Positions 18,676-37,633 of a DNA stretch of 64,000 nucleotides are shown here, piece after piece. Position 1 is the stretch's first letter, and each line of letters opens with the position of its first letter. The notes beneath the pieces are model-generated. The model was not told the origin of the DNA. It saw nothing but the letters and a program-made list of their open reading frames with translations, and did no database searches. Source of the DNA: Bacteroidota bacterium (lineage in GTDB: Bacteria; Bacteroidota; Ignavibacteria; Kryptoniales; JAKASW01); assembly GCA_023381615.1 (NCBI GenBank), contig JAMCQL010000060.1:1-64000 (forward strand), written 5' to 3'. The position numbers were made by a program, and so were the translations under genes.

Positions 18676-18930
18676 TCACTTCATCAGGATCATTCTCTTT
18701 ACCTGCACGAAGCTGCCGGCAGACAACTTGTAAATATAAACGCCACTTGAGACATTCCTCGCGTTCCATGTTACCGAATGATAACCGGCATCCATTTCTT
18801 CGTCGGCAAGTCTTGCGACCTCTCTGCCAAGCATGTCATAGACAGCGAGTTTCACATGAGATGGCTTGGATAAGCTGAATCGTATTTGAGTGGAAGGATT
18901 AAATGGGTTGGGATAATTCTGTTCAATTGT
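18676..18930 (-). pseudogene. Detached T9SS type A C-terminal sorting domain
   Basis: Roughly 84 residues from VTIEQNYPNPFNPSTQIRFS to SFVQVKRMILMK, the classic Por/T9SS sorting tail: beta-sandwich with YDMLGREVARL, AGYHSVTWNA and SSGVYIYKLSAG. It would send a protein through the outer membrane by type IX secretion. Upstream, the frame runs into the inverted duplicate at 18929-19073, so the track's extra N-terminal residues (MRASCGGSSK...) are antisense noise. It was almost certainly the C-terminus of the adjacent subtilase before that rearrangement. Confidence 0.8.
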
Positions 18931-19073
18931 GACGCATATCCGCCCGGCAATTACACAGCTCACTTTGGAGGAACCTCCGCAGCTTGCCCGCAAGTGTCCG
19001 GTGCAGCAGCACTGATGCTGACCATAAACCCCAATCTGGCACCCTCACAGGTAAAAACCATAGTACAAAACAC
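18929..19073 (+). repeat. 145-bp inverted duplicate of protease coding sequence
   Basis: By eye, every base from GTGACGCATATCC to GTACAAAACAC is the exact reverse complement of 19385-19529. Translated on the plus strand it gives DAYPPGNYTAHFGGTSAACP..., a piece of the catalytic-serine region of the minus-strand subtilase. It separates the protease body from its T9SS tail. At the left joint the 7-mer GTGACGC is common to both parent sequences, as judged from the second sorting tail at 22775-23036. Confidence 0.9.
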
Positions 19074-20995
19074 CGCTGGTTACATCTGCACGTAGATCAA
19101 GATAGCCGTCAGAACTATGCATTGTGGTAGAATAGGAATTAGTGGTACTCAACGGTCCGATCCATTGTCCACCAGTCGAATTAGCTCTTAGGAACCATGC
19201 ATAGGTGTAGCTGTCTGTGCTCCCTGTTGCCGACACCGTCCATGTCCCCTGCTGATTGATCGCAAGCTCTCTAGGTCCGGAAATTGGAGCCATCAACGGT
19301 CTTGCGATATACACAGCCGTTCCAGCGTTCAATCGGCCGTAACCAAAATCGGTGTCGTAACCGGACGCGCCCATGTCAGCAGCAGTGTTTTGTACTATGG
19401 TTTTTACCTGTGAGGGTGCCAGATTGGGGTTTATGGTCAGCATCAGTGCTGCTGCACCGGACACTTGCGGGCAAGCTGCGGAGGTTCCTCCAAAGTGAGC
19501 TGTGTAATTGCCGGGCGGATATGCGTCACCTCCCGGAGCACCCCATGTGTAATGGGTGTAGTACGTCGGTGCTCCCGTTCCGTAATTACCGTCGTTCCAG
19601 CCCGGTTGTCCGCCAATGTCTGTTGACCAGACGTCTCCCCTGAGCTGAACACTTCCATCTGGTTGTAAATAACCAAGATCACCACTTGGCGTGACTACCG
19701 ATAATTGCGTCCCTGTCCCCCGAGGACTGTAGTATTGAATGTTGTTCGATTTGTCTGTCGCGCCCACTGCTATAACTCCCGGAACCGTGGCTGGAAAAGT
19801 TACGAAGCCATAATTTCCGTTGTTACGATTGGCACTGTTGCTTGCAGCAAAAACGACGACTGAGCCTCTGCCTCCCCTGCCTTGAGTTAGTGCCCGATTG
19901 ATCGCAGCGGCAATGTTATCATACCATATTCCCTGGGGATAGATTCCCCAACTATTGCTCAGAACGTCGGCTCCATGTTGCCAAGCAAAATCAATGGCGT
20001 TAGTAAAGCCATTATTTGTGGTCCCCTGTCCGTAGCTGTTAAATACTCGCAAGAACATTATTCTGCAGTTTGGGGCTACGCCCGATATTCCTGTGCTATT
20101 ATTCTGAGTCGCGCCGACTACACCTGCACATGCCATTCCATGGGCTTCATTCCCACCTGCGCTTGGATCCGAGTCGATATCGTAATAATCGTAACCGGCA
20201 ACAATCCTACTGGAAGGAATATCTTCCTGAGCCATCCCACCTTCATCGATGACTGCAATGGTTATTGACGATGACCCTGTTGTGATGTCCCATGCGGGCG
20301 TCACATTGATGTCTGCGCCATTTACTCCACCAGTCTGACCTGTGTTACGAAGATAATACTGGTTTGAGAAATAGGTGTCGTTCGGGATGCTCAAGAGACG
20401 AACATCAGTTAGGAAATCAGGAAGGGAATACACTACACGAGGATATTCGTGGTACAGATTTGCCATGTCGAGCACCGACAAGTCTGATGAATGTGTGACT
20501 CTCAAAGTATTAGAGATTCGGTGAAGCCGTGCTGGTGTCAACGACCTCGACATGGTGCACTGCATTCAAAGAACCGATTTCAGTCCAGTCAACCAGCGGC
20601 GAAAACTGAACAACAAATCGATCACTTATCTGGACTTTCGTTTGTCCGCCCACGAGAAAGACGGGGTTGACTATGTCAACTTCTGTTTTTGTCTTAAGTC
20701 GGGCAACAAGTTGCTTAATATCTGTTTTTGGCTTCAATTTGTAATTGAAGAAACCCCCGCATGCCGCAGGGCCGAGCGGAGAGGGTTCTTGAAGTGACGA
20801 TTCCGCCGACATCAGGGACTGTATCTCTGAAGAGGTTACGCCGGGCTTGAACTTGAGCGTTATTTCCTGGTCTGATGGAGTTAGGGCAATTTTCTCGCCG
20901 TGTGAGTAGTAGAAGTAATTCTGTGCGTAAACCGCCGATGAAGAAGATATAACAGCCAAGAAAAGAAAAGCCAAAAAAAAGATGCACTTTTTCAT
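19045..20995 (-). pseudogene. Subtilisin-like (S8) secreted protease, frameshifted and 3'-rearranged
   Basis: Two overlapping ORFs make one gene. The N-terminal part (20510-20995) gives a signal peptide (MKKCIFFLAFLFLAVISSSS) and a prodomain. A one-base excess (AA at 20510-20511 on the complement) then shifts the frame; removing one A restores ASPNL-YTLRVTH and joins the second ORF. That part has the S8 triad regions: Asp in IAVIDEGG, His in NEAHGMACAGVV, Ser in HFGGTSAACPQVSGAAAL. An Ig/PKD-like domain follows (GTWTVSATGSTDSYTYAWF). The frame then enters the inverted duplicate and stops (GVLYYGFYL is antisense-derived). An AGGAG site precedes the ATG. Either a decaying gene or a local assembly error. 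Confidence 0.8.
19385..19529 (-). repeat. Parental copy of the 145-bp inverted duplication
   Basis: In-gene copy encoding the segment DAYPPGNYTAHFGGTSAACP through KTIVQNT of the subtilase, including the catalytic serine. Its reverse complement recurs exactly at 18929-19073, with 311 bp between the two arms, so the DNA could form a large cruciform. Confidence 0.9.
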
Positions 20996-22774: not shown

Positions 22775-23036
22775 TCACTTCATCAGGATCATTCTCTTTA
22801 CCTGCACGAAGCTGCCGGCAGACAACTTGTAGATGTACACTCCGCTTGCCATACCGTTCGCGCTCCACGTAACACCATGGTAACCAGCGGGCATTTGTTC
22901 ATCTGCGAGCCTCGCTACTTCTCTGCCGAGCATGTCGTAGATAAGGAGTTTAACATAAGCTGGCCTGAAGAGTTTGAAGCGGATCTCGGTTGTTGGGTTG
23001 AATGGGTTGGGATAATTCTGTTCAATTGTGACGCGG
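22775..23036 (-). pseudogene. Second orphan T9SS type A sorting domain
   Basis: Not in the ORF track. The minus strand reads RVTIEQNYPNPFNPTTEIRF, then LLIYDMLGREVARLADEQMP, AGYHGVTWSANGMASGVYIY and KLSAGSFVQVKRMILMK, then TGA. It is a close paralogue of the tail at 18676-18930, with identical last residues. There is no passenger protein upstream: the frame meets the MITE-like element at 23041-23152 and then the divergent NlpC gene. The cargo gene was lost or cut away, or this tail was duplicated alone. Confidence 0.8.
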
Positions 23037-34459: not shown

Positions 34460-36073
34460 ATGAAGTTGTTTAAGAACAAAATTTCTACTGCCGTTGCAAT
34501 GTTTCTGGTGGTTGTGGGGATACTGATAGGCACCCAAATACAGAATGTGTTGAGTGATGATAATATTTATGAGCAGTTGGAGAAATTCAAAGATGTACTC
34601 AGCCTTGCCGACAAGTATTATGTCGATAATGTAGATACGCAGAAGTTGGTAGATGCAGCAATCAACGGTTTGCTCGGACAACTTGATCCACATTCCGTTT
34701 ACATTCCAAGAAAAGAAGTTCAACAGATTGCCGAAGATTTTCGCGGCTCGTTCGATGGAATAGGAATTGAGTACGACGTTGTCAATGACACACTTCTTGT
34801 CGTTTCACCGATCGCCGGCGGCCCAAGCGAAATGGTCGGCATACAGGCGGGGGATAAGATTGTAGAGATAGACGGCAAGTCCGCGATTGGGATTACCCGC
34901 GATGAGGTAATGAAGAAGCTCCGCGGTCCGAAAGGGACGAAAGTGGATGTCACTGTGGTTCGCGCTGGTGTTGATAAACCGCTGGCATTCGAAATTACAC
35001 GCGACAAGATACCTCTTTATTCCGTTACAGCTTCCTTTATGGCGAACAAAGAAGTCGGCTATGTTTATGTAAACAGGTTTGCCGAGACAACCAGCAAGGA
35101 GCTCGAAGCGGCACTGGAGAAATTAAAATCACAGGGGATGAAAGAACTCGTTCTCGATCTGCGCGGCAATCCGGGCGGACTCTTGAACCAGGCGGTCGAT
35201 GTTGCCAGCGAATTCATTCCTAAAGGAAAGACCATAGTCTATACAAAGGGCAGAATTCCGGAGGCGAACGAAATTTTCACTTCCAGCGGCGGAAACTACA
35301 CCAAGATTCCGTTGATCGTTCTGATAAATGGCGGCTCTGCATCTGCGAGCGAAATAGTTTCCGGCGCGATTCAAGATTTGGATAGAGGATTGATCGTCGG
35401 CGAGACAAGTTTTGGCAAAGGACTTGTTCAAAGACAATTCAGCTTGAACGACGGCTCGGCTGTGAGAATCACGATCGCCCGCTACTACACACCGAGCGGA
35501 CGCTTGATTCAACGGCCTTACGGAAAAGATCGCATGAAATATTTCACGGCGCCAGAGCGGATCGACAGCACGGAGAAATCCGGTGCTAACCTGACGCACA
35601 CGCTCGAAAGCGATTCGACACGGCCCGTCTACAAGACAGCATCCGGCAGAACGGTTTACGGAGGCGGAGGAATTACTCCGGATTATATTGTGAAAATGGC
35701 GAAGATCCCCGATTTCATTTATGAATTTCAAATTAAGGGAATCATTCTCGCGTACGTAGACGGTCACTTCAGCCAGTCTCAGGATAAACTGAAGAAAGAA
35801 TATGGAAGCGCGGAGAAGTTTAACGAGAATTTCCAGGTCAGCGATAAGATACTGAGCGAAGTTCTCGCTCAGGCTGGAAAAGCCGGAATTAAGGTCAGCA
35901 AGAAAGAATACGAAGACAATAACAAATATATAGCGATGCTCGTGAAGGCGCAGATCGCTCGGAACATTTGGGGAAGCGAAGGGTGGTACAGGGTCGTTCT
36001 GACTTTTGACAACCAGTTCCAAAAAGCATTAACGCTTTTTCCTGAGGCTAAACAAATTGCCGGACTAAATTAA
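34460..36073 (+). CDS. ctpA: C-terminal processing protease (S41, PDZ domain)
   Basis: Periplasmic serine protease with a Ser-Lys dyad. The 537-aa protein has an N-terminal signal-anchor (VAMFLVVVGILIGTQIQNVL) and a PDZ domain (about 90-175, with SPIAGGPSEMVGIQAGDKIV). The S41 domain contains LVLDLRGNPGGLLNQAVDVA, the catalytic Ser295 in NGGSASASEI and Lys320 in GETSFGKGLVQ, the standard 25-residue spacing. The C-terminal ~110 residues are a helical extension seen in many Bacteroidota members. Stands alone in its own transcript. Confidence 0.93.
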   Translation: MKLFKNKISTAVAMFLVVVGILIGTQIQNVLSDDNIYEQLEKFKDVLSLADKYYVDNVDTQKLVDAAINGLLGQLDPHSVYIPRKEVQQIAEDFRGSFDGIGIEYDVVNDTLLVVSPIAGGPSEMVGIQAGDKIVEIDGKSAIGITRDEVMKKLRGPKGTKVDVTVVRAGVDKPLAFEITRDKIPLYSVTASFMANKEVGYVYVNRFAETTSKELEAALEKLKSQGMKELVLDLRGNPGGLLNQAVDVASEFIPKGKTIVYTKGRIPEANEIFTSSGGNYTKIPLIVLINGGSASASEIVSGAIQDLDRGLIVGETSFGKGLVQRQFSLNDGSAVRITIARYYTPSGRLIQRPYGKDRMKYFTAPERIDSTEKSGANLTHTLESDSTRPVYKTASGRTVYGGGGITPDYIVKMAKIPDFIYEFQIKGIILAYVDGHFSQSQDKLKKEYGSAEKFNENFQVSDKILSEVLAQAGKAGIKVSKKEYEDNNKYIAMLVKAQIARNIWGSEGWYRVVLTFDNQFQKALTLFPEAKQIAGLN

Positions 36074-36118
36074 TGACCAAATATCGTTGTCAATTCGGAT
36101 TTTAGTCGGACATAGAGA

Positions 36119-36466
36119 CCCACTGCCTAAGGCAGTGGTAATGGACGAATGGCTTTGGCTGTGTCGAACTCACCCCTTCACTCCCCCTCTCTTTGCGAAA
36201 GAGAGGGGGATGGGGGGTGAGTTAGGATGCAGGACTACATGAAGGAAATCCAGCTCATCGTTTTCTACGAAGCCACCATCTTTGCCGGTTTATTGACCCC
36301 TACTGTCCTCTCGACAAAGTCGGGAGGAGACATCTCCCTCTTGAGAACAAGGGGGAGAAAAAGAGGGGGTTGTCCGACCCGAAGGGTTTCTTCGGGAAGG
36401 ATCTCCGCTTACGGAGCCTACGGCCTGCGGAAAAGAAAGCCATCGCCTATGGCGGTGGTCGTTTAG
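36119..36466. repeat. Array of at least six hairpin-forming palindromes
   Basis: After ctpA come, in order: CCACTGCC-taa-GGCAGTGG (36119); a long stem around CCCCCTCTCTTTGCGAAAGAGA (about 36183); CCTCTCGAC/GTCGGGAGG (36308); TCTCCCTCTTgagaacAAGGGGGAGA (36332); CCCGAAgggtTTCTTCGGG (36379); CTCCGcttaCGGAG (36404); and CCATCGCC/GGCGGTGG (36440). The ORFs that the track reports here (36227-36466 and its complement) are by-products of this array. No poly-T tract follows, so it is not a conventional terminator, although it may stop or stabilise the ctpA transcript. Confidence 0.75.
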
Positions 36467-36733
36467 CGTATAGTACAATTGCGCAAAACTTCCAGATTAT
36501 GATCCCTTTGGAGCGATCTGCAGCCGAGAGCTTATTTTGCAACAATGATCTGCGCAATGAGTGCGACGTGTGTCATAGTTTACAATCTGTTTGCTTACGA
36601 AATTGACAAAGCTTGATGGAAGTGTCTTTGTACGACGACGCGATTTGTGAGCAGCGATGTGAGGTCACCTTAGAACCTTTTTGAACCAAAAATAACTTTG
36701 AGCGGTCATTTAATTGGATAATGAGAATTACTT
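36467..36733 (+). other. AT-rich leader upstream of the DUF3108 gene
   Basis: About 270 bases with no open frame worth keeping (the 78-aa ORF 36370-36606 starts inside the hairpin array and lacks any domain). It should contain the promoter for the DUF3108 gene. I could not single out a convincing motif. Confidence 0.35.
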
Positions 36734-37633
36734 ATGAACGATGACAAGAAAACTCCTTTTAGAAGAATCATGAAAATCTCTCTGCTAGCCTTTTCGGTAA
36801 TAGCCGCTTTGCTTTTCGTGCTCAGGTCGGTTTATGCGATTTCATTGTTCGAAGGTCTGACAAAAGAAATGCAAGCTTCCGGCTGGGTTAGCGCAGGCGG
36901 GGATTTGCTGATGCAGCCGAACGAAGAGTTGACATACGAAGCGAGTTATCTTTTTGTAAAATTCGGAACCGTGAAGTTACAGATTGTTGGCAAGACTAAC
37001 TACGATAACACTCCAGCCTATCGAGTCCGAGCTTACATAGATTCATACAGCGGCATTCCGTTTGTAAATCTTCATGCGGTTTACGAGGCTGTGGCGGACG
37101 CGAAAACTTTCTTTTGCCTGCTCTCGACGAACAGCCAGAAGGAAGGAGATAGTTGGGTCTTTACAAGTTACAGATTTGACTTTGCTAAGAAGATGATTTT
37201 CATAGAGCAGTGGAAAGAGGGAAAGCTTCTTAAGCAATTCAGTATTCCATTGGGCAAGGGTTATACTGACGGTTTGAGCTTTTTCTATTATCTCCGTGCA
37301 GCCGTGCAAAATGCAAATGGGAAGGAAACAAATCTGAGCGTTCCGATTATTGTCGCTGACAGTACTCGTTCGTCGGTTGTTCTAACCATCAATGAAGAAC
37401 GTGAGCCATGTAAAGTTACGGCGTACAATTTCCCGATTGATTCTTACCGGATGTCCGGCTACATCAACTTTAAAGGTTTCTTCGGAGTTACTGGGGATTT
37501 CGTTGGATGGATAAGCACGGATTCGGCAGCGGTTCCGTTGAAAGCTGATGTGAAAGTCATACTCGGAAGTATCGTCGTGAAATTGAAAGAGGTGAAACGA
37601 AACAACTGGATCCCGCCAAGGAGCAAGAGTTGA
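36734..37633 (+). CDS. DUF3108 domain protein
   Basis: 299 aa with an N-terminal membrane segment (ISLLAFSVIAALLFVLRSVY) that works as a signal or anchor, then a beta-rich domain (ELTYEASYLFVKFGTVKLQI, SYSGIPFVNLHAVYEAVAD, GYTDGLSFFYYLRAAVQ, KADVKVILGSIVVKL) matching DUF3108, an envelope family of unknown function. It lies just before a gamma-carbonic anhydrase and an MBL hydrolase in one run; the first two coding regions touch. Confidence 0.8.
   Translation: MNDDKKTPFRRIMKISLLAFSVIAALLFVLRSVYAISLFEGLTKEMQASGWVSAGGDLLMQPNEELTYEASYLFVKFGTVKLQIVGKTNYDNTPAYRVRAYIDSYSGIPFVNLHAVYEAVADAKTFFCLLSTNSQKEGDSWVFTSYRFDFAKKMIFIEQWKEGKLLKQFSIPLGKGYTDGLSFFYYLRAAVQNANGKETNLSVPIIVADSTRSSVVLTINEEREPCKVTAYNFPIDSYRMSGYINFKGFFGVTGDFVGWISTDSAAVPLKADVKVILGSIVVKLKEVKRNNWIPPRSKS

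Follow-up and report, generated by a model that had tools for sequence, protein, structure and literature searches.

The cluster of hairpins 3' of the ctpA gene forms one 366-base unit, positions 36101-36466 of the window (the whole 64,000-nucleotide stretch of DNA that was analyzed), and this unit is very likely a single composite, non-autonomous element of the IS200/IS605 type that resembles the PATEs. Its assignment to this type draws on dispersed copies, the ends that these copies share, a transposase-encoding partner element in a related genome (G011), a pairing rule between guide and cleavage site, and the empty locus in congeners.

Folded as RNA, the region 36074-36480 has a minimum free energy of -180.3 kcal/mol, compared with -134.1 ± 5.8 kcal/mol for dinucleotide shuffles (z = -8.0; 0/100). 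The DNA fold of the other strand showed a similar excess over shuffles (z = -7.7), and we therefore regard the array as real rather than a product of chance. Fold energy was chosen as the measure because the region did not stand out within the window by its number of short perfect stems. The individual stems could be located as well (Table 1), which bears out an earlier note that had described dense palindromes after ctpA. That note gave the extent as 36119-36466; its right end was exact, but its left end fell 18 nt short. It had also taken the stems to be unrelated in sequence, which is not true of all of them, as the first and last stems of the array represent the left and right end hairpins of a single element family. 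No open reading frame of at least 80 aa was found inside 36101-36466, and thus there is no transposase gene within the unit.

Table 1. Features of the window copy and its neighbors
Feature	Position	Strand	Remarks
ctpA-type C-terminal processing protease (Peptidase_S41, PDZ)	34460..36073	+	Upstream neighbor
TTTAG at left junction	36101..36105	+	Final four bases, TTAG, putative target and left cleavage site, outside the moving unit
Left guide AGAC	36116..36119	+	Consensus AAAC, one base off; directly 5' of the left hairpin, a position relative to the hairpin that matches IS608 (PMC5934647)
Family A body	36117..36277	+	88-93% identity to 10 other copies; from alignments
Left end hairpin (IPL), CCACTGCCT-A-AGGCAGTGG	36120..36138	+	9 bp, perfect
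Nested palindrome in A, CTCACCCC..TCCCCCTCTCTTT / AAAGAGAGGGGGA..GGGGTGAG	36167..36223	.	24-nt arms, 75% paired without gaps; perfect 13-bp core 36182-36210; resembles the class flanking DUF559 genes
Start of family A right hairpin, GAAGCCACC	36269-36277	+	Within family A body
A/B fusion point	36273..36289	.	Inside a short match, CCACC..CTTTGCCGGT, between the A right hairpin and the left part of B
Family B body and right end	36280..36466	+	77-90% identity to about 9 other copies
Stems within B	36308..36396	.	Given singly below
Stem	36308-36326
Outer pair	36329-36374		14-nt arms, 86%
Stem	36333-36358		11-nt arms, 91%
Stem	36378-36396		7 bp, perfect; extra, missing from the B copies aligned
Small stem CTCCG-CTTA-CGGAG	36403..36416	.	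5 bp; also in other B copies
Right guide AAAG	36436..36439	+
Right end hairpin (IPR), CCATCGCC-TAT-GGCGGTGG	36440..36458	+
Right cleavage site, last bases of the element	36463..36466	+	TTAG in this copy, versus TTAC in other copies of B and TCAC in A
DUF3108 protein	36734..37633	+	Downstream neighbor; same gene order in 10 insert-free congeners

A search of the own genome (3.37 Mb in 86 contigs, 94% complete) with the array region resolved it into two dispersed families. The first half belongs to family A, whose 10 further copies mostly cover query positions 28-216, and the second half to family B. In alignments, copies of both families have sharp edges, with flanks that bear no relation to one another before TTTAG and after TTCAC or TTTAC. 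The two families have their ends in common: on the left TTTAG, 10 nt, AAAC, and a hairpin; on the right GAAG or AAAG, a hairpin, 4 nt, and TCAC or TTAC. Degenerate patterns of these ends matched 18 left and 18 right sites in the genome, whereas the reversed patterns matched none; TTTAG was present at 16 of the 18 left ends and TTCAG at one, with unrelated sequence upstream. Family A is ~197 nt long, while B copies for which both ends were found range from 177 to 359 nt and vary in the number of interior palindromes. On the left, 14 nt separate the cleavage site from the hairpin foot; on the right, 8 nt separate the hairpin from the tip. IS200/IS605 elements and PATEs are known for this kind of asymmetry. 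We thus observe many dispersed copies with fixed boundaries and with near-terminal palindromes at both ends, in the absence of terminal inverted repeats. The same sequences occur at about 20 further sites beside unrelated genes, and most of the other copies are intergenic.

Some repeats and copies deserve mention in their own right. In the B copy at G000:C81:18849-18871, a further small element with ~20-nt inverted ends (ATAGAAGC.CGGCCGAAAAG) interrupts the right hairpin. This closely recalls Haloquadratum, where PATE palindromes are targets of SMR elements (PMC3119063). A family A copy at the end of G000:C54 and the start of C5 (L131 and L132) is split by what appears to be another insertion sequence, and both contigs break there. 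Elsewhere in the window lies a 165-nt inverted repeat (18929-19093 and 19365-19529; 96% complementary, 271 nt apart), adjoined by a 260-nt direct repeat (18676-18935 and 22775-23034; 79%).

The window copy is a mosaic, with a B-like left tip, family A sequence up to 36277, and family B sequence from about 36280 to 36466. In alignments, the fusion point is where an A copy (C75), a B copy (C83), and a B copy with its left hairpin deleted (C81) meet, and the deletion in C81 falls at the same motif as the A/B change-over. Judging from these sequences, the chimera is compatible both with an exchange inside a B element and with a deletion between two neighboring elements. The second of these, in which A and B were inserted side by side and a deletion then removed the inner ends, is a serious variant to which we give somewhat less than an even chance. 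In its favor, the two families join within a short match that the A right hairpin shares with the B left hairpin, and core deletions between terminal palindromes are known from PATEs (PMC3119063). However, the B-like left tip (TTTAGTCGGACATAGA) ahead of the A body fits an exchange inside B at least equally well, and no intermediate was found. The compound is in any case a fusion of two families of one element type, and the stepwise insertion of REPs proposed in the earlier note has to be given up.

Related genomes supplied the transposase partner. In congeners, the same left end leads into other interiors; the relatives with this end are uncultured Bacteroidetes/Ignavibacteriales metagenome-assembled genomes. 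The congener G011 holds a complete element that consists of TTTAGTCCGACGTAGAAACCCACTGCCTAAGGCAGTGG, a 149-codon frame, and GAAGCCACCGG-TTTT-GCCGGTGGTAGTTCAC, and both of its ends match those of A and B. The frame is a Y1_Tnp (E = 2e-36), and its protein resembles the transposase of ISHp608 (E = 7.5e-22) as well as other IS200-type transposases of the PDB; its HVH and Y-x3-Q motifs are those expected for enzymes of the IS200 class (PMC6006769). In G002, further left ends run into tnpA, with the transposase frame cut by contig ends, and contig C79 of the own genome has a left end and the start of tnpA followed by foreign sequence, a truncated remnant. The ends of A and B are therefore also those of a TnpA-encoding IS200/IS605 element in G011, and their left end recurs next to tnpA in G002 and in the C79 remnant. 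A protein search of the host assembly (94% complete, 86 contigs) found no intact copy of the G011-type transposase, and near the 11 Y1-family matches of the own genome no A/B-type end matched beyond chance. From these sequences, the element was probably moved in trans by an IS200 transposase of the G011 type.

The earlier note had instead read the array as successive nesting of REP elements, which would be spread by a RAYT transposase. Many different palindromes do lie close together here, the genome holds several Y1-type genes besides the IS200 ones, and the inner palindromes belong to a REP-like class with C/T arms that also occurs alone beside other genes. Nonetheless, we consider this origin improbable. 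What recurs is an A or B element in its entirety, with two fixed ends that differ from each other; AAAC and GAAG/AAAG stand at the hairpin feet in place of GTAG/GGAG; and the full-length partner encodes an IS200-type TnpA and not a RAYT. None of the 11 Y1-family matches of the own genome proved to be a RAYT gene with these hairpins on its flanks. What survives of the proposal is that mobile repeats of different origins were joined at a harmless intergenic site; that they are REPs does not.

Three Y1 genes of the own genome are of separate interest. L025 (C73:46514-46846) is an intact IS200-type gene with end hairpins of its own that differ from those of A and B (CCCCAGCCTTTAGGCTGGGG). At L023 (C16), a series of CCTCTACGAGG-type palindromes comes after a Y1 gene and may be the REP set of that gene. 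At L026 (C41:20139-20372), a RAYT-like Y1_Tnp domain lies in frame inside a 1297-codon restriction-modification-like frame and is bordered by repeat-like peptides.

Elements of the IS200/IS605 group pair their cleavage sites with guide tetranucleotides, and in IS608 the fourth base of the site pairs with the fourth base of the guide. Bases 1 and 2 of the IS608 site pair crosswise with guide bases 1 and 2 (A16:T-3 and A17:T-4; PMC5934647), such that the guides AAAG and GAAT go with the sites TTAC and TCAA (PMC5934647). Applied to the present ends, the rule predicts AAAC from TTAG on the left, GAAG from TCAC on the right of family A, and AAAG from TTAC on the right of family B, and in each case the predicted guide was found. 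In a register that was chosen after the ends had been seen, the left TTAG/AAAC pairing was Watson-Crick in 70 of 75 tested pairs over 25 ends, and 14 right ends were fully paired (TCAC/GAAG in A and TTAC/AAAG in B). Left hairpins scored as right ends served as decoys and gave no full match. A shuffle test over all scored right ends mixed true ends with decoy hairpins and was not relied on. The right ends that deviate from the rule are those of the window copy, C72, G012, and one of G011. The IS608 rule thus holds for the consensus ends of both families and of the G011 element, and the window copy is off by one position per end. The guide/site difference between A and B is compensatory and may represent a single evolutionary event. 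This natural family pair, TCAC/GAAG versus TTAC/AAAG, fits the guide/cleavage pairing worked out for IS608.

In 10 congeners a single contig carries both ctpA and the DUF3108 gene, and none of these congeners has the insert. The spacer between the two genes measures 250-295 nt in nine of them and 81 nt in one, compared with 660 nt in the window, or 299 nt once the element is taken out. These lengths and the insert-free congeners indicate that the array is an insertion specific to this lineage, in a spacer tolerant of change. The element-free spacer showed no usable homology when aligned with the congener spacers, which are too diverged to place the insertion point at base resolution, and no strain-level empty site was present among the genomes compared. 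Conservation of the array in order across related species, which the earlier note had named as evidence against its own reading, was not seen, as all 10 congeners lack the array.

The same data bear on a role in the ctpA transcript. A terminator or mRNA-stabilizing structure under selection would suit the very stable predicted RNA fold and the position of the element 27 nt after the ctpA stop codon. It would, however, have to be missing at this locus in all 10 congeners and to recur at about 20 other places beside unrelated genes, so that we hold such a role to be very unlikely and agree with the earlier note that the array is not a terminator. An incidental effect of the element on transcription is possible. 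Least probable of all is one conserved structured non-coding RNA, for which the strong fold speaks, but against which stand the lack of any Rfam match at the gathering score, a locus that is not conserved in congeners, and interiors that differ freely among copies. Sub-threshold hits of microRNA-type and H/ACA models from Rfam on the long palindrome, some of them on both strands, were taken as chance.

For the composite IS200/IS605-type element, we infer a single-strand mode of transposition. A Y1 (HUH) transposase supplied in trans would bind the two end hairpins on single-stranded DNA, where the tetranucleotides 5' of the hairpins would pair with the cleavage sites; the element would then leave as a single-stranded circle and insert 3' of TTAG. 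The model predicts an empty site in which ...CAATTCGGATTTTAG is joined straight to CGTATAGTAC.... The choice of TTAG as the putative target follows the analogy with IS608, since target and element are inseparable without an empty site. Exchange or deletion between short matches of the end hairpins, before or after insertion, could have produced the chimera, and the hairpins between the two ends would be passengers. The window copy looks decayed, as its left guide is AGAC instead of AAAC and its right cleavage site TTAG instead of TTAC. It is probably inert now, given these two defects and a host assembly in which no intact transposase of this kind was found.

The innermost palindromes may add a further layer. 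The nested palindrome of family A resembles palindromes that lie in clusters beside DUF559 genes in genomes of the same taxonomic order, with a best match of 87% over 60 nt, although C-rich self-complementary sequences may look alike by convergence. A C/T-armed hairpin was found within 300 bp of 20 of 25 DUF559 (PF04480) genes in the class and genus (L173-L202), compared with 0 of 26 control ctpA genes; in a second, phylum-wide set (L203-L230), the count was 13 of 24. The open-access literature yielded no relevant paper on a link between DUF559 and palindromes. On sequence grounds, a nested layer of REP-like palindromes linked here to DUF559 genes is plausible. Only tentatively, and with the chances against it, we suggest that the inner palindromes were captured from a distinct mobile palindrome, so far undescribed, whose own enzyme would be a DUF559 (restriction-endonuclease-like) protein. 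If this were true, the DUF559 genes of the phylum would represent a palindrome-flanked element in its autonomous form, one able to enter even essential genes in frame, and the IS200-type ends would offer DUF559-linked palindromes a second way of moving. The array thus hints at a possible new palindrome-endonuclease partnership.

In the phylum-wide set, DUF559 domains were also seen in frame inside leucyl-tRNA synthetase (L205 and L208), cobalamin-dependent methionine synthase (L213), and the type I restriction gene HsdR (L212), each with translated palindromes at the borders. In L205, some 160 residues correspond to a stretch of about 3 in the Thermus thermophilus enzyme. L204, L205, and L208 also seem to contain shorter peptides that are encoded by palindromes and lack DUF559.

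Taken together, these results suggest that dissimilar hairpins packed closely together can belong to a single mobile unit that is constant only at its ends, and that counting palindromes alone would assign such clusters the wrong origin. They would extend gene-less IS200/IS605-type elements to a little-known bacterial lineage, in which such ends could carry arrays of unrelated hairpins around a genome.

Among known systems, the PATEs of Haloquadratum (PMC3119063) share with the present element palindromes near both ends without terminal inverted repeats, a longer tip distance on the left than on the right, a length too short for a transposase, ends in common with IS605-type elements, and core deletions. 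The present element differs in being bacterial, in its tnpA-only partner of IS200 type, in its unrelated sequence, in an interior filled with further palindromes, and in the A/B chimera. With REP/BIME sequences and their RAYTs (PMC6006769 and PMC8266576), it has in common short intergenic palindromes, clusters, and related Y1 enzymes, but it lacks the GTAG/GGAG foot and has two different fixed ends and an IS200-type TnpA partner. IS608 and ISDra2, of the IS200/IS605 family, also have subterminal hairpins whose 5' feet carry guide tetranucleotides, the same guide/cleavage-site pairing rule, and a partner transposase of the Y1 family; in contrast to them, the present element has no gene inside, its TTAG target is putative, and the guide and cleavage site of the window copy are defective. 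BOX-type modular repeats, like the present elements, combine fixed outer modules with a variable middle, but their sequences are different, and the ends described here are tied to a transposase.
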